Below, in pieces: positions 9,354 to 46,502 of a stretch of 64,000 nucleotides of DNA (positions within the stretch are counted from its first letter, which is position 1; each line of letters opens with the position of its first letter). The notes under the pieces were generated by a model. That model was not told the origin of the DNA, ran no database searches, and was given only the letters and a program-made list of their open reading frames with translations. The position numbers and the translations under genes were made by a program. This DNA comes from Nitrospirota bacterium (lineage in GTDB: Bacteria; Nitrospirota; Nitrospiria; 2-01-FULL-66-17): positions 248,001 to 312,000 of the forward strand of contig JBFLXB010000001.1 of the NCBI GenBank assembly GCA_040757335.1, read 5' to 3'.

Positions 9354-9476
9354 AGCCCGGTCAGGAATGCGCCAGATGCAAGGCGGAGCGAGCACCGCAC
9401 CGCAGCGTACTGGGTGCGTACGTGAGGAGCGGATGCGCAGCGACAACGCCGCAGATGGCCATTCATGGACGGGCTC
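9354..9476. repeat. Inverted-repeat element, type B
   Basis: About 123 bp. Left end AGCCCGGTCAGGAATGCG and right end complement GAGCCCGTCCATGAATGG form terminal inverted repeats. The core GCGTACTGGGTGCGTACG and the GATGCAAGGCGGAGCGAG block are shared with the other copies. The right end lies immediately against the cnoX stop codon, with no intervening base. Confidence 0.82.
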
Positions 9477-10340
9477 TTAGTAAATGAGGCGAGCGAGCTT
9501 TTCGCGGTACTCCTCGGCGAGCGGACTTCGCGCGCCGACCACTTCAAAGATCTGGAGCATCATCTTGCGCGGCGCATCGTCCTTGTAGTGGCGGTCCTTC
9601 TTGAGGATGGCCAGATACGCGTCGAGCGCGTCGCGGTAGCGTTGGGCGGCGGCGTACCGAGCCGCGAGTTGAAATCGCGATTCCAGGTCCGCGGGATCGC
9701 GGTTGACCGCGACTTCCAATTCCGCGAGGGATGGACCGGCGCCTCCGACGCTCGCCAGATCGATCCGTGCTTTAAGCGCTACCACGTCGTCGCGAAGCTG
9801 GAGCGGACCCGGCATGCGGTCGTAGGCAGCCGTCGCGTCGGCCCACCGCGCCAAGTGCACCAGCACGCGCAGTTCGCCGACGGCTGCGGCCGCGTGGTGC
9901 GGATCCACGGCCAGGGCTTCACGGTAGGCGTTGAGCGCCTCCTCCCATTGCTTCTCGACCTCCAGCGCCGCTCCTGCGTCGGCCAGACCATCCGCCTTGG
10001 TGGGGACCAACCGTTGGATGAATTGCCGGATGGCCGATTCCGGCAGCGCGCCCACGAATTCATTGACGACCTTTCCCTTCCAGAACGCTTTCACGTTGGG
10101 GATGGTCTGGATGCGGTAGCGCTGGGCCAGGTTCAGATTGCGATCCGTGTCGACCTTGGCGAGCAGCGCCTTGCCCTCGAAGTCCTCGACGACCTCCTCG
10201 AGGATCGGCCCCAGATACCGGCACGGTCCGCACCACTCGGCCCAGAAGTCCACCAACACCGGCACCTGGCGCGAACGCGCAATCACGCGCTCCTCGAACG
10301 TCGCCTCATCCGCGTCAAAGATCCAATCAGTGTCCGTCAT
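9477..10340 (-). CDS. cnoX: Thioredoxin-like chaperedoxin with TPR tail (CnoX/YbbN family)
   Basis: 287-residue cytoplasmic protein with an N-terminal thioredoxin fold (residues 1 to about 115), active-site motif WCGPC with Cys37 and Cys40, followed by helical tetratricopeptide-like repeats typical of YbbN. E. coli CnoX protects substrates from over-oxidation and hands them to GroEL or DnaK. That enzyme has an SxxC motif, whereas this one keeps both cysteines and may also act as a reductase, as in several other bacterial CnoX proteins. A repeat element begins directly after the stop. Confidence 0.87.
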   Translation of the reverse strand: MTDTDWIFDADEATFEERVIARSRQVPVLVDFWAEWCGPCRYLGPILEEVVEDFEGKALLAKVDTDRNLNLAQRYRIQTIPNVKAFWKGKVVNEFVGALPESAIRQFIQRLVPTKADGLADAGAALEVEKQWEEALNAYREALAVDPHHAAAAVGELRVLVHLARWADATAAYDRMPGPLQLRDDVVALKARIDLASVGGAGPSLAELEVAVNRDPADLESRFQLAARYAAAQRYRDALDAYLAILKKDRHYKDDAPRKMMLQIFEVVGARSPLAEEYREKLARLIY

Positions 10341-20593: not shown

Positions 20594-22291
20594 ATGAGCG
20601 ACCGCCGACCCGTCCCGACAGAGCCTGATCCCCAGCGTCCACCCTCGCCTGCGACGTCCGAGGACTCCCTGTTGGGCCTGATCGATCGGTGTCTCGCGTC
20701 GTTGTCCGAGGGCGATCCCAAACAGAAATGGCTCTATCGCATTCGGCACCTGGTTTTGCAGGAGGAACGCACGCGCCGAGAGAGCGACGCGGATCTCCAG
20801 AAGCTCAGGGGCGTGGTCGACAAGCTGACCGCGCCCGCCAACCGCGTGGGAGTCGTCGTGGCGGTGCCGGGACGTGACGTGGTTCGGCTCGTGGTGGGTG
20901 GGGCCGAGTACTGGGCCGGCGTGGACCCGCGGCTTGACCCCGGTGAGCTCAAGGTCGGGGTGCAGGTTCTCGTGAACGAAGCGTTCGCCGTGATCAAGGT
21001 GCTCGGCTACGAAACCGGCGGCCCGGTGTTGAGGGTCGTCGACAGTTTGCCGGACGGGAGGATCCGCATCGGGCAGGAACCGGGCGGGCAGGCGGCGTTC
21101 ATTATCCGAAGTGCGGACCTGGTCGGGACCGAGATCCAGCCGGGTGACGAGGTGCGGGTGGATTCGAGCCACCGCGTGGCCATCGAGCGACTGGAGTCCA
21201 AGGGAAGTCGTGACCGACTCTTGGACGAGGTTCCCGACGTCACGTGGGAGGATATCGGAGGCCAGAAGGACGCGATCGCCGCGATCCGCAAGTCGATCGA
21301 AGCGCCGCTCCTCCACGCGAAAACGTTTGCACGTTTCCGGTTCAAACCGCCGAAGGGCCTCCTGCTGTACGGACCGCCGGGCTGCGGCAAGACGCTGATC
21401 GGGAAAGCCACCGCGGCCAGCCTTGCGGCGTCCCTGGCCGGTGACGGACCGCCGGTCCGCGGCGCGTTTCTGCACGTCAAAGGCCCCGAGATCCTGAACA
21501 TGTGGCTGGGCGAATCGGAACGGCTCGTGCGCGACCTGTTTGCCCAGGCGCGAAGTCGGCGCACCGCAGGGTTTTTGCCCGTGATCTTCATCGATGAAGC
21601 CGAGTCGATCCTGGGGACTCGCCGCTCCATGCGCGCGCTCAACATCGCGAACACCCTGGTCCCGATGTTTTGCGCGGAGATGGACGGCGTGACGTCGCTG
21701 CGAGACGTCGTGATCATCCTGGCGTCGAACCGTCCCGACCTCATCGATCCCGCGATCCTGCGGCCGGGACGCATTGACCGGAAAATCAAAGTGGGGCGGC
21801 CCAGCCGCGAGGACGCGACCGAGATCATCCGGATCCATCTCGGCGACGTGCCGCTCGACCCCTCGCTCCTCGGAGACCACGGCGGGGACGAGGCGGCGGC
21901 ACGCGCGGCGCTCGTCACGGCCGCGATCGACCGGCTGTTCGCGCGGGACGACGGCAACCGCGTGTTGGCGGTGCGCCTGCGCAGCGGCCTCCGGGAGACG
22001 ATGTACCGGGGCGACGTGATCAGCGGGGCGATCCTGGCGGCGGTGGCGCAACGCGCCAAGGAGCGCGCGATCGAACGCGCACTGCAGCAAGGCGGCGAGC
22101 AAGGAATCGGCATCGAAGACCTCCGCGATGCGATCGACGCGGAGTTTTCTCAAGGAGAAATTCTCCCGCCCGACGACGCGGCGGAAGAATGGCTCAAGGT
22201 GCTGGACCACCATCCTCAGCAGGTGGTGGGCGTGGCGTCCTTCCGAGGCGGGCGGGAGTCAGGCGAGCGCCCGGTCCACGTCGTCATCTAG
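20594..22291 (+). CDS. mpa: Proteasome-associated AAA+ ATPase (Mpa/ARC)
   Basis: 565-residue hexameric ring ATPase that recognises UBact-tagged proteins and threads them into the 20S core. It has an N-terminal helical segment (about 30-80), then OB-type beta segments (about 80-200), and one AAA domain with GPPGCGKT at 260-267, IFIDEAES with Asp334 and Glu335, and the SRH-type PAILRPGRIDRKIKVGRP. The C terminus reads RPVHVVI and lacks the penultimate Tyr of the usual HbYX or QYL proteasome-docking tails. It is first in a + strand cluster with dop, UBact, prcB, prcA and pafA; a repeat element begins 3 bp after the stop. Confidence 0.93.
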   Translation: MSDRRPVPTEPDPQRPPSPATSEDSLLGLIDRCLASLSEGDPKQKWLYRIRHLVLQEERTRRESDADLQKLRGVVDKLTAPANRVGVVVAVPGRDVVRLVVGGAEYWAGVDPRLDPGELKVGVQVLVNEAFAVIKVLGYETGGPVLRVVDSLPDGRIRIGQEPGGQAAFIIRSADLVGTEIQPGDEVRVDSSHRVAIERLESKGSRDRLLDEVPDVTWEDIGGQKDAIAAIRKSIEAPLLHAKTFARFRFKPPKGLLLYGPPGCGKTLIGKATAASLAASLAGDGPPVRGAFLHVKGPEILNMWLGESERLVRDLFAQARSRRTAGFLPVIFIDEAESILGTRRSMRALNIANTLVPMFCAEMDGVTSLRDVVIILASNRPDLIDPAILRPGRIDRKIKVGRPSREDATEIIRIHLGDVPLDPSLLGDHGGDEAAARAALVTAAIDRLFARDDGNRVLAVRLRSGLRETMYRGDVISGAILAAVAQRAKERAIERALQQGGEQGIGIEDLRDAIDAEFSQGEILPPDDAAEEWLKVLDHHPQQVVGVASFRGGRESGERPVHVVI

Positions 22292-22294
22292 GGC

Positions 22295-22418
22295 GAGCCT
22301 GTCCATGAAGGGTCATCTGCTGCGTTGCCGCTGCGCGTCCGGTGCTCACGTACACACTGAGTACGCTCCGCTCCGGTGCTCGCGGCGCCTTGCATCTGAC
22401 GCCTTCCTGAACAGGCTC
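22295..22418. repeat. Inverted-repeat element, type B, within the proteasome operon
   Basis: 124 bp, with left end GAGCCTGTCCATGAAGGG and right end complement GAGCCTGTTCAGGAAGG. The core TCACGTACACACTGAGTACG and the GGCGCCTTGCATCTGACG block are conserved. It begins 3 bp after the mpa stop and ends 38 bp before dop. Confidence 0.85.
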
Positions 22419-22456
22419 GATTAGGACCAGGCCGCAGTGGAGACGAATAGCCTCGC

Positions 22457-24028
22457 GTGAGCGCTCTCAACTCACAGAAGATTCCCTACCCGACAGTCGG
22501 TCTGATCGGGTTGGAAACCGAGTACGGGATCACTCGCGATCACGCGTCCTCCATCGACCACGTGAGCGAGTCGATGGCGTTGGTGCGCGCGTACCTGGAC
22601 GGGCCGTTCCAACGGCGGTGGAGTTATCGGGAAGAGGATCCCCACCGCGACGCGCGGGGGTTCCGCGTCGAGCGACTGGAGCAAGACGAGGAGGAGGACG
22701 AGTTTGCCGCGCGCGACGCCGCTCGCGCCTTGTCCTTTACCGACGTGAAGAGCGATTTGGTCCTGACGAACGGAGCCAGGTTCTACAACGACCACACCCA
22801 CCCGGAATACTCCACGCCGGAGTGCCGATCACTCGCGGACCTGGTGGCTCACGATCGGGCCGGCGAGTTGATCGTGTGGGAAGCAGCCTGCCGCAGAAAC
22901 CGGCGCCTCGCCGCCGCCGGCCAGCCCGGTGACGTCTCCGTGTTCAAGAACAATACGGACTTTCACGGCCACAGCTACGGATGCCACGACAACTATTTGC
23001 TGCCGCGAAGCGTATCGTTCGAGCGCCTCGCAAAGGGCCTGATCCCGTTTCTCATCTCCCGCCAGATCGTGGCCGGGTCCGGCAAGATGGGGATCGAAGT
23101 ACCGACCGGCCCCGTTCGCGGCCGGTACCAGATTTCTCAACGCGCCGACTTCATCGAGACCGATCTCAGCGTCAACACCATGCACAACCGCCCCGTGGTC
23201 AACACCCGCGACGAACCGCACGCCGATCCCGCCCGCTTCCGCCGGCTCCACTTGATCCTGGGGGACGCCAACCTGTCAGAGTTCGCCACCGCGCTCAAGG
23301 TCGGCACCACCCGGGCTGTGCTCGAACTGATCACGCGCGGCGGTGCACCCGACGTCGCGGTCGAGCAACCCGCGCTGGCCCTGAAGACGATATCGCAGGA
23401 CCCGGACCTGAAGGCGAGCGTTCGGCTCCGGGACGGCCGACGGTTGACCGCGCTGGATCTCCAGTCGATCTACCTCGATGCGGCGCGCGCCGGTTTGGAG
23501 GGGGCGGATCCCGAGATGGACTGGGTGTTGCGCGAATGGTCGGCGACGCTGGCGGCGCTGGCCGGTGATCAGGCTTCGCTCCGCGGGCGCGTGGACTGGA
23601 TCACCAAGCGGTGGCTGTTGGAGACGTTCACCGAGGACGCCAGGATCGCGTGGGATGATCCGTGGTTGGAGAGTCTCGACCTGGCGTATCATCATCTCGA
23701 CCCCGCGCGGGGTTTGTTTCGGGGCTTGGAGGCCGACGGAGCCGCGGGTCGGGTCTCGACCCCCGAGGCCGTGGAGCACGCGGTTCGGCACGCTCCGGCC
23801 GATACTCGCGCGAGCATCAGGGAATTGTGTATGACCCGGTTCGGGGAGGAGGTCGATTCGATGCAATGGGCCATGATCGGGGCCAAAGACGGCACCGCGC
23901 TGGATTTGGGGTCACTGGTCGAGCCGGAGGGGGTTGCCCGCCTCGCGCGGATCCTCCGGGATGCCCCGAGTCTGTCAGCCGGGATCAGAGCCTGGCGAGA
24001 AGGAATCACACCACGAGGTCACGCATGA
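22457..24028 (+). CDS. dop: Deamidase/depupylase-type enzyme acting on UBact
   Basis: 523-residue carboxylate-amine ligase-fold enzyme. The ATP/Mg motif is GLETEYG (Glu20, Glu22). The insertion after residue about 55, rich in Glu and Asp, corresponds to the Dop-specific loop and separates it from PafA. The nucleophilic Asp lies in FYNDHTHPEYSTPEC (Asp112). Dop converts the C-terminal Gln of Pup to Glu and removes Pup from substrates; here the partner is the UBact gene whose ATG overlaps the dop stop. GTG start, weak ribosome site. Confidence 0.92.
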   Translation: MSALNSQKIPYPTVGLIGLETEYGITRDHASSIDHVSESMALVRAYLDGPFQRRWSYREEDPHRDARGFRVERLEQDEEEDEFAARDAARALSFTDVKSDLVLTNGARFYNDHTHPEYSTPECRSLADLVAHDRAGELIVWEAACRRNRRLAAAGQPGDVSVFKNNTDFHGHSYGCHDNYLLPRSVSFERLAKGLIPFLISRQIVAGSGKMGIEVPTGPVRGRYQISQRADFIETDLSVNTMHNRPVVNTRDEPHADPARFRRLHLILGDANLSEFATALKVGTTRAVLELITRGGAPDVAVEQPALALKTISQDPDLKASVRLRDGRRLTALDLQSIYLDAARAGLEGADPEMDWVLREWSATLAALAGDQASLRGRVDWITKRWLLETFTEDARIAWDDPWLESLDLAYHHLDPARGLFRGLEADGAAGRVSTPEAVEHAVRHAPADTRASIRELCMTRFGEEVDSMQWAMIGAKDGTALDLGSLVEPEGVARLARILRDAPSLSAGIRAWREGITPRGHA

Positions 24029-24207
24029 TGACTATCGATTTGGAACGCCGCGAACGCCCGATCGATCCGGCGCCCGCTCCGCGAAAAGAGGATCCTGGCC
24101 CCCGGCGACCGGATGTCGGGTCGCCGGAGCGGGAGAACCTGCTCAAGCGGATGCGGCAGGTGGATCCGAAGCAGGCGGAGCGGTATCGCCAACGCACGGG
24201 CCAGTAG
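24025..24207 (+). CDS. UBact: ubiquitin-like protein modifier of Gram-negative proteasomes
   Basis: 60 residues, highly charged and proline-rich, without Cys or hydrophobic core, as expected for an intrinsically disordered Pup-like tag. The end RYRQRTGQ matches the UBact C-terminal pattern (Arg-rich, then Gly and Gln/Glu). The terminal Gln means Dop must deamidate it before PafA can join its gamma-carboxylate to a lysine. A run NLLKRMRQVDPKQAERY near the C terminus is a likely helix for binding Mpa. It starts with ATGATG overlapping the dop stop and sits before prcB, the same place as pup in Actinobacteria. Confidence 0.92.
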   Translation: MMTIDLERRERPIDPAPAPRKEDPGPRRPDVGSPERENLLKRMRQVDPKQAERYRQRTGQ

Positions 24208-24210
24208 TCC

Positions 24211-24331
24211 CGGCCGCCGATAAGCGGTCATCTGCGGCGTTGCCGCTGCGCTTCCGGTCCTCACGTACGCATACAGTACGCTGCGGTCCGGTTCTCGCGG
24301 CGCCTTGCATCTGACCACTTCTTGGCGGCCG
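24211..24331. repeat. Inverted-repeat element, type B, variant ends
   Basis: 121 bp. The central part (GGTCATCTGCGGCGTTGCCG, CTCACGTACGCATACAGTACG, GGCGCCTTGCATCTGACC) matches the family, but the tips are CGGCCGCCGATAAGCGG and, in complement, CGGCCGCCAAGAAGTGG, so both ends changed together. It starts 3 bp after the UBact stop and ends 30 bp before prcB. Confidence 0.82.
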
Positions 24332-24361
24332 CTTGCTTCGCAAGAGGAGGCGAAAAAAGAA

Positions 24362-25138
24362 ATGACGGGGGATTTTGTCGAGCTGTTGAAGGCGAGCGGG
24401 TATACGTGGATGCCTCAAGTGGGGGCCGAGCACGTGGATCGGGAGACAATCGCGCACGGCACCACCGTGCTTGCGATGAAGTATCGGGACGGGGTGTTGG
24501 TGGCCGGGGATCGGCGGGCTACGGCGGGTAATGTCGTGATGCACGACCGGACCGACAAGGTCTTGGATCTGGATCGGTACAGCGTGCTCGCCATCGCGGG
24601 GGTGCCGGCCACCGCGTTCGAGATGGCTCGGGTGCTGGATCATTCGTTCAAGTATTACCGCCGCAGCCAGCTCCAGGATCTGAGCCTGGAGGGCAAACTG
24701 CGCGCGCTCTCCAAACTGCTCCGGGACAACATTCCGATGGCGGTCCAGGGCATCGGTGCCGTGGCTCCCATCTTCGCGGGCTACGACGTGCAGAGCCGGA
24801 CGGCGAAGATCTTTTTTTACGACATCCTCGGCGCGGAGTTCGAAGGCGTGGAATACGCCGCGTCCGGTTCCGGCTCGCCCACGATCCGCGGCATCCTGCA
24901 CTACGTCCATCGTTGGGGCCCCCAACGCCTTGCCGCGATGGCGGAGGACGACGCCATCGTGCTCGCGCTGCGCTTGCTCAACAGCGCCGCCGAGTTTGAT
25001 TCGGCGACCGGGGGCGTCGACATCGCCGACGGGTTGTACCCGGTGGTCAAACTGATCACCGCGGAGGGGACCACCGTCGTGGCCTCGGAACGATTGGGCC
25101 GCCTGTACGAGGCCCATGTGGGGGGGCGGGGTGTTTGA
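24362..25138 (+). CDS. prcB: 20S proteasome beta subunit (catalytic)
   Basis: 258 residues. The propeptide (1-33) should be cut before Thr34 in AHGTTVLAMKYRDG, exposing the N-terminal nucleophile. GDRRAT and the lysine in HDRTDKV correspond to the catalytic Asp and Lys of beta subunits. The ATG at 24362 is chosen because GAGGAGG lies 12-18 bp upstream and because earlier in-frame codons come from the preceding repeat element. Two rings of seven PrcB form the proteolytic chamber. The stop overlaps prcA. Confidence 0.93.
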   Translation: MTGDFVELLKASGYTWMPQVGAEHVDRETIAHGTTVLAMKYRDGVLVAGDRRATAGNVVMHDRTDKVLDLDRYSVLAIAGVPATAFEMARVLDHSFKYYRRSQLQDLSLEGKLRALSKLLRDNIPMAVQGIGAVAPIFAGYDVQSRTAKIFFYDILGAEFEGVEYAASGSGSPTIRGILHYVHRWGPQRLAAMAEDDAIVLALRLLNSAAEFDSATGGVDIADGLYPVVKLITAEGTTVVASERLGRLYEAHVGGRGV

Positions 25139-25907
25139 AGAGCCGTATCGGTGGACCGAGGCCGTCGGCAACCGACGAGCCTACGTCGACGCCCAGCTCG
25201 CGCAGGGGAGTCCGGTGGTCGCGCTCTCCTATCGCGACGGGGTCGTACTCGCCACCTTTCAACGAGGCATCCCCAAGTTGTATGAGGTGTACGATCGCAT
25301 CGCCTTGGGCGGCGTGGGGCATCCCGCGGATCTGGAGGCGTTGCGCGCCGCCGCGCTCGATATGGCGCACGTGGAGGGGTTCAACCGCTCACCCGCCGAC
25401 GTGACCGCGATGCGTCTGATCAAGTACGGGCTTGCGCCGCTCGCCAAACGCGCGTACGAGGAACTGTTTCGCGCCCCGTTGATCGCAAGAGTGCTGCTCG
25501 CCCAAGTGGGGGCCCGATGGGGCCAGGACGTGCTGATGACGTTGGACTACGACGGAACCTTCGAAGAGACGGTTGGTCGCGCCGTGCTCGCGGCTTCGGA
25601 CCCTTCCCGCCGCGCGATGCTCGCGCATCTCGACGGGGCCGGACCGTGGCAGGAGGCCCCGCTTGCGGCGGCGCTCCCCGCGGCACTCCGCGCCTGGGCG
25701 GTCGGGGAGCTCGTTCACGCGGCTCCGGAGGCGCCTGCGCCGGATGATGCACGGTTGACCCAACACCTCCAGGCGTGCGGCGTCGATCGTCGAATCGAGG
25801 TGGCGGTGCTGGACAGGGGAGCCGCCGGGACGTCGAAGTACCGCTCTCTTACGGCCAACGAGGTCTCCGAGTTCCTGGTGCCATGGCTCGGCGCCGCCGT
25901 ACGCTGA
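25131..25907 (+). CDS. prcA: 20S proteasome alpha subunit
   Basis: About 258 residues with the alpha-type fold: an N-terminal helix (EEPYRWTEAVGNRRAYVDAQLAQG), SPVVALSYRDGVVLATF, YDRIALGGVGHPADLEALRAAALDMA, and a C-terminal IEVAVLDR strand as in mycobacterial PrcA. No N-terminal Thr nucleophile, as expected for the structural outer ring that gates the chamber and docks Mpa. The GTG at 25131 overlaps the prcB stop by 8 bp and follows a G-rich ribosome site; ATG 25116 is an alternative. Confidence 0.9.
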   Translation: MFEEPYRWTEAVGNRRAYVDAQLAQGSPVVALSYRDGVVLATFQRGIPKLYEVYDRIALGGVGHPADLEALRAAALDMAHVEGFNRSPADVTAMRLIKYGLAPLAKRAYEELFRAPLIARVLLAQVGARWGQDVLMTLDYDGTFEETVGRAVLAASDPSRRAMLAHLDGAGPWQEAPLAAALPAALRAWAVGELVHAAPEAPAPDDARLTQHLQACGVDRRIEVAVLDRGAAGTSKYRSLTANEVSEFLVPWLGAAVR

Positions 25908-25909
25908 GA

Positions 25910-25928
25910 GAGCCTGTCCATGAATGGG
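25910..25928. repeat. Solo end of a type B element
   Basis: GAGCCTGTCCATGAATGGG, identical in pattern to the left end of the full type B copies, with no core or right end following. It begins 2 bp after the prcA stop, the same position relative to a stop codon as the complete copies, so it is either a deletion remnant or a bare target-like site. Confidence 0.7.
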
Positions 25929-25957
25929 ATACCAGGACACACTTCTAAGGCGCCACT

Positions 25958-27373
25958 GTGCTGGACCGGATCGTCGGCATCGAAACCGAGTACGGGCTGC
26001 TGAGCCACGCCGATCAGCGCTTGCGAGCGCCCGAACGGATCGCCCACCGGCTGAGGGACTTCATCTTTCACGAAAAGCGCCTCGGCCTCATCGACCTTCA
26101 CCATCGCGATTACGACGAACCCGTGGGCAACGGAGGGTTCCTGCTCAACGCCGGCCGCTTGTACGTGGACATGGGGCACCTGGAATACGCCGGTCCCGAG
26201 TGCGCCACGCTGGCCGACGCCGTGGCGTACGAGCGGGCCGGCGACGTGATCGTGCAGCGGGCGTTGGAAGAGGTGGGGCTCGCCGAGCGCGCGTCGATCA
26301 TCAAGAACAACATCGACCACGAGACCGACGCGACGTTCGGGTCGCACGAGAACTACCTCGTGCGTCGCTCCTTTCCGTTTACGCGTGAGGGCCTGGATCA
26401 ACTCGTGCCGTTTTTGGTCACGCGCCAACTCTTCGCCGGCGCGGGTCGGGTCGGGGCCGCGCGCGTGCCCTCCGGGTTGGTGCGGATCAGCGATGAAGTG
26501 GAGCGGCCCGACGCGACCTTTCAGATTTCGCAGCGGTCCGACCATATCGTCAACGAATTTTTCCAGTGGGTGCAGGGCAACCGGGCCATCATCAACACGC
26601 GCGACGAGCCCCTCGCCGACCCGGAACGGTTCCGCCGCCTGCACCTCCTGCTGGGAGACTCCAATCTGTGCGAGGTCGCCATCGCGCTGAAAATCGGCAC
26701 CACGTGTCTGGTCCTCCAGTTGATCGAGGACGGCGTGAGCTTCGCGGATTTGACGTTGCCCGACCCGGTCGGCTCGTTGCACGCGATTTCTCGCGACGCG
26801 TCGCGCCGGTGGCTCGTGGAGTTGAACGACGGGCGGGTGATCTCGGCCATCGACATTCAAGAGCGGTACGCCGAGGCGGCGCGTCGCTATTACGGGCGCG
26901 ATGAGGAGATGGACTGGGTCATCGACGAATGGCAACGCGTGCTTACCGATCTCCGGGGTGACTACGAAAAGCTCGTCGGACGGCTCGACTGGGCGTCCAA
27001 GTTGTGGATGCTGGAATCGTTTCGAGAGGCCGAGGGCCTCGACTGGGACGCTCCCTGGCTCAAGAGTCTCGATCTGGAGTATCACAACCTGCAGACGGCG
27101 CAGGGGTTGTACTTCGCGTTGTCGGAGGAAGGACGGGTTCACCGCTACATCACCGACGACGCCGCGGAGTTGGCGGTGGCCCACCCGCCGCGTAACACCC
27201 GTGCGTTCGGACGGGGTGAGGCCATCAAACACCTGATGGCCGGCGACGGACGATACGTGATCACGTGGTCGGGGCTCATGGTGGAAGGGCGGCCGCCGCT
27301 GCGGATGCCGGACCCGTTTCTGACCTACAGTGGCGCCGTCCTGGATCATTTCACGCAGCATAATCCCCGTTGA
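25958..27373 (+). CDS. pafA: UBact/Pup--protein ligase
   Basis: 471-residue PafA-type ligase. Motifs: VGIETEYGL (Glu9, Glu11), nucleophile region LYVDMGHLEYAGPEC with Asp71, FGSHENYLVRRSFPF, TRDEPLADPERFRRLHLLLGDSNLCE, and EYHNLQ near the C-terminal domain. It lacks the acidic loop that marks Dop. It activates the C-terminal Glu of UBact with ATP and forms an isopeptide bond to target lysines. GTG start. The stop overlaps the next start (TGATG). Confidence 0.93.
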   Translation: MLDRIVGIETEYGLLSHADQRLRAPERIAHRLRDFIFHEKRLGLIDLHHRDYDEPVGNGGFLLNAGRLYVDMGHLEYAGPECATLADAVAYERAGDVIVQRALEEVGLAERASIIKNNIDHETDATFGSHENYLVRRSFPFTREGLDQLVPFLVTRQLFAGAGRVGAARVPSGLVRISDEVERPDATFQISQRSDHIVNEFFQWVQGNRAIINTRDEPLADPERFRRLHLLLGDSNLCEVAIALKIGTTCLVLQLIEDGVSFADLTLPDPVGSLHAISRDASRRWLVELNDGRVISAIDIQERYAEAARRYYGRDEEMDWVIDEWQRVLTDLRGDYEKLVGRLDWASKLWMLESFREAEGLDWDAPWLKSLDLEYHNLQTAQGLYFALSEEGRVHRYITDDAAELAVAHPPRNTRAFGRGEAIKHLMAGDGRYVITWSGLMVEGRPPLRMPDPFLTYSGAVLDHFTQHNPR

Positions 27374-29229
27374 TGGCACCAACGCAGTTGGTATCCCGCC
27401 GGCCCGCCCCGCTTGCCGCGTGGCTCAGCCTGATCGTTTTCGGTGTCGCGCTTTATCTGCCCAGCCTGCGTTTTGCGAGCTTCCACTACGACGACGCGAA
27501 CGTGATCGTCGAGAATCCTGCCGTTCACTCGTTGCGGACGCCCAGCCGGTTCTTCACGGACGGCGGTACCGCGATGGCCACCGCCCAACGACACGAAAAG
27601 GGAGATGTCGTCTACCGGCCGCTGTTGACGCTCTCGTTCGCGTTGGACTACGCGCTCTGGGGACTGGATGGTCGCGGGTATCGCGCCACCAATCTTGTCG
27701 TCCATCTGGCAACGGCTCTGATCGCGTTTGGATTGGCGCAACGTTTGGGGGTCGGTCTTCTGACGGCGTGGCTTGTTGCGACCGCGATGCTGATTCATCC
27801 CGTGCACGTCCAGATCGTGGACTACGTTTCGGCCCGTTCATCCGGGCTGTCCGGAGCCTTGACGCTGGGCACCGCGTGGGCGTATGCCGCATTTCGTCGG
27901 GGCGGCTCCCCGTGGTCGTATCCGCTCGCACTAGGACTGGGATGCGCAGCCCTGCTGACGAAAGAGCCCGCCGCTGCGCTGCCCGCTCTACTGCTGTTGA
28001 CCGAGGCGGTGGGACACAATCGTGGCTGGCGGGACATTCGCTGGCGACCCTTGGTGCCGTTTATTCTCCTTGTGATCGCGTTTGTGTGGATCCGTTCCGT
28101 CGTCCTGCACCCCTTCAGCGAACCGGACCCTCGTCCGGATCGATCCGGTCTGCTCGGTTTGGTGTGGACCGCATGGCGCCTCGCAGCCGGCTATGTCCAG
28201 CTCTGGGTCTTCCCTTGGCCATTGTCGCTTGACCATCCGTTCGCCGTGACGGAGCCGGGCTGGGACTTGAGGACGTTCGCAGCGATGGTGGTCCTGCTTG
28301 CCGCGATCACGATGATCGCGTGGGGCGTTGTTTCCGGCCACCGGGTTTGGGCCTTCGGTCCGCTCTGGTTTGTGATGGCAGTGGCGCCTTCCTGCGTGCT
28401 GCCCTGGATCACGACGCGCGCGCTGTTGTTCGAGCAGAGGGCGTACGCGGCTGATTTCGGACTCGCGTTGCTCACTGCGCTGACGGCGGTCTGGTTGCTC
28501 GAACGGCTCCAAGGCGTCCGGCGCGTCGCGGTCGTTGCTGTGACGGTGGCGGTCTACGGTATCTGGGCCGTGGCGACGGTGGTGTACGCCGAGACCTGGA
28601 AAACGCCGCTGACCGCCTGGGAACATGCGGCGCACGCTTTCCCTGACAGCGTGACCGCGCAATACAATTTCGGGGTTCAACTGCGCGCGGTTGATCGGAA
28701 CGACGAGGCGCTGGAGGCGTTTGAGCAGGCGCGGGCGCTCAACCCCCTCTTAAAAGACATTCATCGTCAAATCGAGGCCATTCGCCAGGGACGAGGCGGA
28801 TGGGTGAACGTCATTACCGAGCACGAAGCCCTGGTGCGCGAGGATCCCTCCAGAGAATTTGCCTGGTTCAATCTCGGTGTGGCCTACCAAAAGGTCGGTG
28901 AGCGCGAACAAGCACTCAAGGCTTACCGCAAGGCGCTCGCCTTACGTCCGTCGCGCGTCGCCTCCCATATCAACCTGGGGGCCATCCTCGTCGACCTCGG
29001 ACGAACGAACGAAGCGATCGAAGCGTTTCAAGGAGCGCTGGTCGTCGAACCCTCCTCGATCATGGCGCGCTATAACTTGGCGGCCGCCTATCGAGGGGCC
29101 GGCCGCAGGGAGGACGCCAAACGAGAGTACGAGACCCTTCTGAAACTCCTGCCGGATACGGAATCCGGGGAAGGATTCCGGGCGAGCGTTGAAATCGCCA
29201 TCCGCGAACTGAACGCGGAGCGTTCCTGA
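27373..29229 (+). CDS. Multi-spanning membrane protein with C-terminal TPR repeats (PMT/TMTC-like)
   Basis: 618 residues. The N-terminal two thirds contain about ten hydrophobic segments with an early FHYDDANVIVENPAVHSLRTP luminal-loop motif and VYRPLLTLSFALDYALWGLDGRGYRATNLVVHL, as in TMTC-type proteins and GT-C glycosyltransferases. From about residue 430 there are at least three TPR units (TAQYNFGVQL, FAWFNLGVAYQKVGEREQALKAYRKAL, ASHINLGAILVDLGRTNEAIEAF). Probably a membrane O-glycosyltransferase or assembly protein; the substrate is unknown. Translationally coupled to pafA. Confidence 0.75.
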   Translation: MAPTQLVSRRPAPLAAWLSLIVFGVALYLPSLRFASFHYDDANVIVENPAVHSLRTPSRFFTDGGTAMATAQRHEKGDVVYRPLLTLSFALDYALWGLDGRGYRATNLVVHLATALIAFGLAQRLGVGLLTAWLVATAMLIHPVHVQIVDYVSARSSGLSGALTLGTAWAYAAFRRGGSPWSYPLALGLGCAALLTKEPAAALPALLLLTEAVGHNRGWRDIRWRPLVPFILLVIAFVWIRSVVLHPFSEPDPRPDRSGLLGLVWTAWRLAAGYVQLWVFPWPLSLDHPFAVTEPGWDLRTFAAMVVLLAAITMIAWGVVSGHRVWAFGPLWFVMAVAPSCVLPWITTRALLFEQRAYAADFGLALLTALTAVWLLERLQGVRRVAVVAVTVAVYGIWAVATVVYAETWKTPLTAWEHAAHAFPDSVTAQYNFGVQLRAVDRNDEALEAFEQARALNPLLKDIHRQIEAIRQGRGGWVNVITEHEALVREDPSREFAWFNLGVAYQKVGEREQALKAYRKALALRPSRVASHINLGAILVDLGRTNEAIEAFQGALVVEPSSIMARYNLAAAYRGAGRREDAKREYETLLKLLPDTESGEGFRASVEIAIRELNAERS

Positions 29230-46252: not shown

Positions 46253-46502
46253 GAGCCTGTCCATGAACCTGAACGCGCCGAGGGCGCGAACTCTAATCGA
46301 CCCGAAGGGACACTACAGGTGGCGAAGCAACGGTCATCTGCTGCGTTGCCGCTCTCAAGATGCCACGGCCGCCGCACCGTCTCGGCGGCGCTCCTGGCTT
46401 GGCGCCACTTCTTCGTGGCGCCACTCGCCTCACGTACGCAACCAGTACGCTCCGCTCCGGTGCTCGCGGCGCCTTGCATCTGACGCGTTCCCGAACAGGC
46501 TC
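46253..46502. repeat. Inverted-repeat element, type B, long composite copy inside the carboxylase operon
   Basis: 250 bp, with ends GAGCCTGTCCATGAAC and, in complement, GAGCCTGTTCGGGAACG. It contains the family core (CTCACGTACGCAACCAGTAC) plus the palindromic block GGCGCCACTTCTTCGTGGCG shared with the copy at 10.5 kb, and a unique insert of about 60 bp near the left end. The left end touches the pycA stop codon. Confidence 0.83.

Follow-up and report, generated by a model that had tools for sequence, protein, structure and literature searches.

The window analysed here is a stretch of 64,000 nucleotides from a Nitrospirota draft genome (GenBank assembly GCA_040757335.1, contig JBFLXB010000001.1, positions 248,001 to 312,000). 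Between its positions 20594 and 27373 lies a UBact locus in which six genes, mpa-dop-UBact-prcB-prcA-pafA, are intact and all on the forward strand; completeness, order and strand agree with an original prediction made from the sequence alone. We consider it probable that this locus specifies a UBact tagging pathway together with a dedicated 20S proteasome, and that it is one of two such lines in the cell.

The mpa gene (20594-22291) encodes a UBact-type proteasomal AAA ATPase of 565 residues with the C-terminus -VHVVI. The downstream genes are dop (22457-24028), for a UBact-type deamidase and de-conjugase that carries the active-site residues and the Dop-loop WSYREEDPHRDARGF (pattern WxYxxExPxxDARGF); the UBact tag gene (24025-24207), for 60 residues ending in Gly-Gln; prcB (24362-25138), for a 20S beta subunit with Thr1, Asp17 and Lys33; prcA (25131-25907), for a strongly divergent 20S alpha subunit that retains the pocket lysine; and a pafA-like gene (25958-27373), for a presumed UBact ligase of 471 residues with an alpha-loop motif of its own. 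The two translational overlaps that had been claimed are real, namely ATGA between dop and UBact (24025-24028) and GTGTTTGA between prcB and prcA (25131-25138), where prcA starts at a GTG inside the end of prcB, a start called by reference to relatives, which begin MYEEPYRW; a third, TGATG, joins pafA to the following gene (27371-27375). The same gene order was found in 67 of the 80 named relative loci, most of the remaining loci being only partial. The locus is less compact than had been proposed, with two copies of a hairpin-forming interspersed repeat of about 130 bp separating mpa from dop (22292-22424, z -4.7) and UBact from prcB (24208-24340, z -5.5).

The tag scores 71.7 bits against the Pfam UBact model PF20513 (cut-off 27.8) and 78.4 bits against the NCBIfam UBact equivalog NF033388 (cut-off 35), and a chance match is excluded because both curated cut-offs are exceeded. 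Its C-terminus, YRQRTGQ, fits the UBact ending RTG[EQ], and its gene has the UBact-style placement between dop and prcB. The Pup model PF05639 gave no match for the window tag, which falls in the UBact family only, and the single Pup match of the genome lies on another contig, C4. The modifier is therefore, as first proposed, a UBact ending in Gln and not a Pup. The enzymes match Pup-type NCBIfam models, yet all of them remain below the equivalog cut-offs: Mpa (TIGR03689, 432.8 against 504.75 bits), Dop (TIGR03688, 441.6 against 492.3), PrcB (TIGR03690, 189.7 against 191.9), PrcA (59.6 against 139.05) and PafA (TIGR03686, 344.5 against 551.3, a model to which the genome's Pup-type PafA was not put). 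They are UBact-type forms and not close copies of the actinobacterial enzymes; among Nitrospirota such a UBact locus is ordinary, and this one adds a member to a known type.

The same genome (3.56 Mb in 61 contigs, 99% complete, 0.49% contamination) contains four genes of the Pup-ligase family, two in the window and two on C4. Contig C4 also encodes a canonical Pup and 20S beta and alpha subunits, and a stretch of it, L066, constitutes a complete mpa-dop-pup-prcB-prcA-pafA locus whose Pup ends in GGE and whose Mpa ends in GHYL; the beta subunits of the two loci are 39% identical. The genome thus holds two complete, diverged tag-proteasome systems, and the cell may run two parallel protein-disposal lines. 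The proposal that the window locus would make a good model is weakened by this second system, since a clean single-tag model would need a deletion.

The distribution of both tags was examined in one draw of 295 genomes of the phylum. UBact was found in 103 genomes and Pup in 137, with 96 carrying both, 12 of them as single-contig assemblies; Pup accompanies UBact in 85 of 86 UBact genomes of the window's class and in 11 of 17 in the more distant family f20. The seven UBact genomes with no Pup match differ in their Pup-ligase matches: G179 has four, G089 three and a short fragment, and G019, G066, G074, G078 and G098 two each, G019 being a single-contig assembly of family f20 with the UBact set only. 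The UBact-type beta subunit, called at E <1e-70 in a protein search with the window PrcB, a threshold that separates it from the Pup type, is present in 102 of the 103 UBact genomes and in no genome of the draw without UBact. The exception is G129, where the start of prcB is fused in frame to the end of prcA and most of both proteins is gone, while mpa, dop, UBact and pafA of the UBact locus and the Pup-type core genes are retained. It is the only one of these genomes without a UBact-type core particle, and its Mpa has no hydrophobic tail.

The two types of Mpa differ in their C-terminal tails. Among 68 closed UBact-type Mpa open reading frames (ORFs; the window's own and those of loci L123-L202), 61 end in -II, six in -IV and one, the window's own, in -VI; 18 further ones (L223-L242) comprise seven -II, four -VI, one -VV, five -IE (family f20) and one -KN (G129), the two locus sets sharing species and being counted without de-duplication. 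A penultimate Tyr occurs in none of these 86 sequences, and a tail of the GQYL/GHYL type is missing from the window Mpa. Pup-type Mpa tails (n=25) read GHYL in 22 cases and GHYF in three. In mycobacteria, according to passages of PMC12288473 and PMC8142254, the gate does not open without the GQYL tail and a conserved lysine of the alpha subunit, which the tail is presumed to reach. The window PrcA retains this gate lysine as K49, invariant in an alignment of 35 sequences, as is every residue of its N-terminal E-P-Y-R-W. A PrcA model (mean predicted local distance difference test score, pLDDT, 71) finds its best matches in Mycobacterium tuberculosis proteasome alpha-subunit chains, with a template modelling score (TM-score) by target of about 0.7. 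On the catalytic side, 95 of 98 beta ORFs of the UBact type have Thr1, Asp17 and Lys33 intact, the motif being unmatched in L125, L135 and L156. The joint loss of core particle and tail in G129, a single draft genome, fits a docking role for the tail.

The enzymes that would attach and remove the tag call for a closer reading. Passages of PMC8599861 list Glu8, Glu10, Tyr92, Glu99, His155 and His241 as Mg-binding residues of A. cellulolyticus Dop, and counterparts of these and of the catalytic Asp are present in both the dop and the pafA products of the window. The claim of intact catalytic residues thus holds for Dop and the PafA-like protein as it does for PrcB. In the pafA product, E9, E11, Y69, D71, E76, H130 and H229 form invariant columns in 29 sequences, and the protein lacks the Dop-loop while keeping all active-site residues. 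It scores practically the same on the NCBIfam PafA (344.5 bits) and Dop (342.4 bits) models and higher against Dop (about 275-277 bits) than PafA (240-242 bits) among PDB sequences. At the catalytic Asp it reads D-M-G-H and, in the alignment, is without the extra residue of Pup-type PafA; Table 1 of PMC7947786 gives an inserted residue and G-S/C-H beside this Asp as a PafA trait. The alpha-loop, H-I-V-N-E-F-F-Q-W-V-Q-G-N-R, is unlike both the Dop and the PafA patterns of the same table. A structure model (mean pLDDT 67.7) does not discriminate between the two, its TM-scores by query against PafA and against Dop structures being similar (0.62-0.69). The alpha-loop, in a region with pLDDT <50, is modelled as a short helix of the kind reported for PafA. 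The predicted pafA is thus present as a gene with the active-site residues, but homology does not settle the PafA identity of 25958-27373.

Phylogenies of Dop and PafA were computed with 110 rows, 64 rows, 53 rows including actinobacterial Dop and PafA, and 44 rows (columns at least 95% filled, C. glutamicum and f20 rows left out). UBact Dop, UBact PafA and Pup Dop form tight groups in each of the 110-, 64- and 53-row trees; Pup PafA forms one group in the two larger trees, and in the 53-row tree actinobacterial PafA falls inside it. A deep split places UBact Dop with UBact PafA and Pup Dop with Pup PafA, with Shimodaira-Hasegawa-like approximate likelihood-ratio test (SH-aLRT) support of 99 at 110 rows and bootstrap/SH-aLRT support of 97/97 at 53 rows and 99/98 at 44 rows. 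The best 64-row tree, from the approximately unbiased (AU) run, separates the PafA sequences, and AU tests of a single PafA clade gave p values of 0.0146 (64 rows), 0.0565, and 0.0924 (44 rows). The trees are unrooted, and the UBact pafA branch is long (1.2-1.4 changes per column), the group also being named in a warning that came with the 110-row tree, so that long-branch attraction is possible. Since the trees pair UBact PafA with UBact Dop but the AU tests are mixed, two separate ligase inventions are favoured but not established. Passages of PMC7947786, with Nitrospirae included, trace the Dop cluster and the PafA cluster to an ancient duplication. Two occurrences elsewhere may be recorded here. 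In an unannotated 'Bacteriophage sp.' record from human faeces (MT835496.1, 41853-43409), possibly a bacterial contig under the wrong label, a Dop-like protein is encoded twice, and Nonomuraea gerenzanensis has a second pafA far from its Pup locus (NZ_LT559118.1, 2230447-2231760) on a record listed as an 11.85 Mb plasmid.

The terminal Gln of the tag had been presented as setting it apart from Glu-ending Pups through a strict need for Dop. In three locus sets that overlap one another, most UBact ORFs have Glu at the end (61 of 75, 22 of 30 and 17 of 20). Of the Pup ORFs, 26 of 31 and 18 of 20 finish with GGE, and parsimony on a FastTree tree of 93 loci (L200 omitted) places at least 15 changes between Glu and Gln. 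The Gln end was therefore rejected as a UBact hallmark, and proteins of the Pup family had already been described with a G[EQ] end (PMC2588565). It is a labile local state. What stands of the claim is that a UBact ending in Gln should need deamidation by Dop before ligation; Gln or Glu does not separate UBact from Pup. For this genome we infer an asymmetry in which UBact-Q needs deamidation and Pup-E does not.

Genes, catalytic residues, tails and co-occurrence can be read from the sequences themselves, and a working scheme may be built on them in which deamidation, ligation, recognition and degradation are extrapolated from Pup biochemistry. UBact would be made with its terminal Gln, which the Dop of the locus would deamidate to Glu; the PafA-like enzyme would phosphorylate this Glu with ATP and join UBact to lysines of target proteins. 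The UBact-type Mpa would then recognise the tag, unfold the target and pass it to the PrcBA chamber encoded alongside, and Dop would also take the tag off again. The Pup-type locus on C4 would do likewise with Pup, the Glu end of which would require no deamidation. Docking is probably the point at which the two lines are kept separate, since each Mpa type has a conserved C-terminal tail of its own, and tails and co-occurrence together suggest that the lines are insulated from each other. We advance only tentatively, as possible but doubtful, the fuller proposal of two insulated lines in Nitrospirota cells. In it, a Dop-like ancestor would have given rise to the UBact ligase separately from PafA, and a new conserved hydrophobic tail (-QII/-VI, -IE in f20) would replace GQYL/HbYX in docking the UBact ATPase onto its own alpha ring.

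Several explanations compete with two separate lines. Because the draft consists of 61 contigs and the window and the Pup locus are on different ones, the second locus might be a contaminant and the cell might have UBact only, but the interspersed repeat of the window locus is common to C1 and C4 (C4:78833-78957, 90% identity to the query copy), estimated contamination is low, both loci also occur in the relative G295, and there are the 12 single-contig assemblies with both tags. Taken together, repeat, relative and assemblies argue against contamination, which we rejected as the origin of the second system and regard as scarcely credible. Exchange of Dop, PafA, Mpa and 20S parts, with UBact and Pup feeding one mixed proteasome pool, is a weightier alternative. 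In its favour, the enzymes are all homologues, each tag has a G-E or G-Q end, and both PrcA types retain the lysine of the alpha subunit. G129, having lost the UBact-type core genes, keeps UBact, its dop, pafA and mpa together with Pup-type core genes, and in G299 dop and UBact remain but no core genes of the UBact type were found. Against this, UBact hardly ever occurs apart from the beta subunit of its own type, the Mpa tails differ consistently and PrcA has diverged far, and we hold a mixed pool to be unlikely. It is quite improbable, in our estimate, that UBact conjugation is mainly non-degradative, regulating activity or assembly, with the adjoining proteasome genes kept for another function: corynebacteria pupylate without a proteasome, and G129, apparently like G299, still has tag and dop although its core genes are gone, but 102 of 103 UBact genomes retain core genes and the catalytic triad is intact in nearly all UBact-type beta ORFs.

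A UBact line with its own proteasome beside a Pup line remains our preferred reading, and the following points weigh against it. The five missed NCBIfam cut-offs do so, as does the fact that a function for the -II/-VI tail is extrapolated and that G129 is one draft genome. In the assembly of G299 (family f4, 82% complete), dop and UBact are present but neither Mpa nor PrcB of the UBact type was found, so that UBact may work with no proteasome of its own or through that of Pup. Moreover, passages of PMC12288473 report that pupylated proteins are poor in vitro substrates for mycobacterial Mpa and 20S, and docking rules may therefore be more complex.

Variants of the layout were seen among relatives. 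The UBact locus appears to be eroding in family f4, with a fused prcB/prcA remnant in L229 (G129) and dop and UBact alone in L283 (G299). The Nitrospira draft YR-XLJ-1 has a tandem pair of dop-UBact-prcB-prcA-pafA sets (L200, 3715-8271), either real or a strain mixture, and in contig C3 of G009 and other genomes of family f2 pup lies about 45 kb or more from the Pup-type dop-prcB-prcA-pafA, not between dop and prcB. Directly behind the window locus, a gene for a TPR membrane protein (27373-29229, forward strand) shares the TGATG with pafA. It was considered as a conserved seventh member and rejected, similar ORFs occurring in three relative loci, about 3 kb off and on the opposite strand; it is probably not part of the system because it is not conserved directly behind pafA in relatives. 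The repeat, with its long hairpin fold, has at least 40 copies in the genome, those in the window including 9354-9487 and 46329-46501, among others, besides the two inside the UBact locus, which might influence its transcript.

The earlier grounds for interest, the Gln end and the simple model, are weak; better ones are that two complete, diverged systems reside together, that their ATPase tails differ and that their ligases may have evolved separately. Mycobacterium has one tag-proteasome system, and a cell with two complete, diverged Pup-like systems offers a natural test, impossible to pose there, of mutual recognition among tag, ligase, unfoldase and proteasome. The organisms concerned include Nitrospira, nitrite oxidisers important in the nitrogen cycle; a UBact locus was seen for N. 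moscoviensis and for N. defluvii. If the ligase did arise twice, this would be a natural counterpart to the 20-mutation change from Dop to ligase published in PMC7947786.

UBact systems of Nitrospirae and other Gram-negative phyla were reportedly described, and UBact named, by Lehmann, Udasin, Livneh and Ciechanover in 2017 in Biochemical and Biophysical Research Communications (BBRC). The window locus shares their tag family, gene set and order and shows no difference in kind; set beside them, it has its own Gln end and a Pup locus in the same genome. A dual state is not new in principle, since the Figure 2 legend of PMC3511204 (Barandun, Delley and Weber-Ban) reported in 2012 two copies of the whole system, loci L1 and L2, in Leptospirillum ferrooxidans. 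Full-text literature searches, which missed the 2017 UBact paper and most subscription papers, returned nothing on the combined Pup and UBact state beyond that legend, and we do not claim it as unreported; full-text searches likewise returned no study centred on Nitrospira proteasomes. The L2 tag is without GGE in passages of PMC3511204, as is UBact; there the dual state is given for one species, before UBact was named, and here it is found in most UBact-bearing genomes sampled. With the Pup-proteasome of Actinobacteria (M. tuberculosis) the window locus shares enzyme folds, gene order and presumed chemistry, and it differs in tag sequence, Mpa tail, PrcA divergence and pafA-like motifs. The Pup-type locus on C4 has the same six-gene layout as the window locus and differs from it by the GGE end of its Pup, the GHYL tail of its Mpa and a beta subunit of 39% identity.

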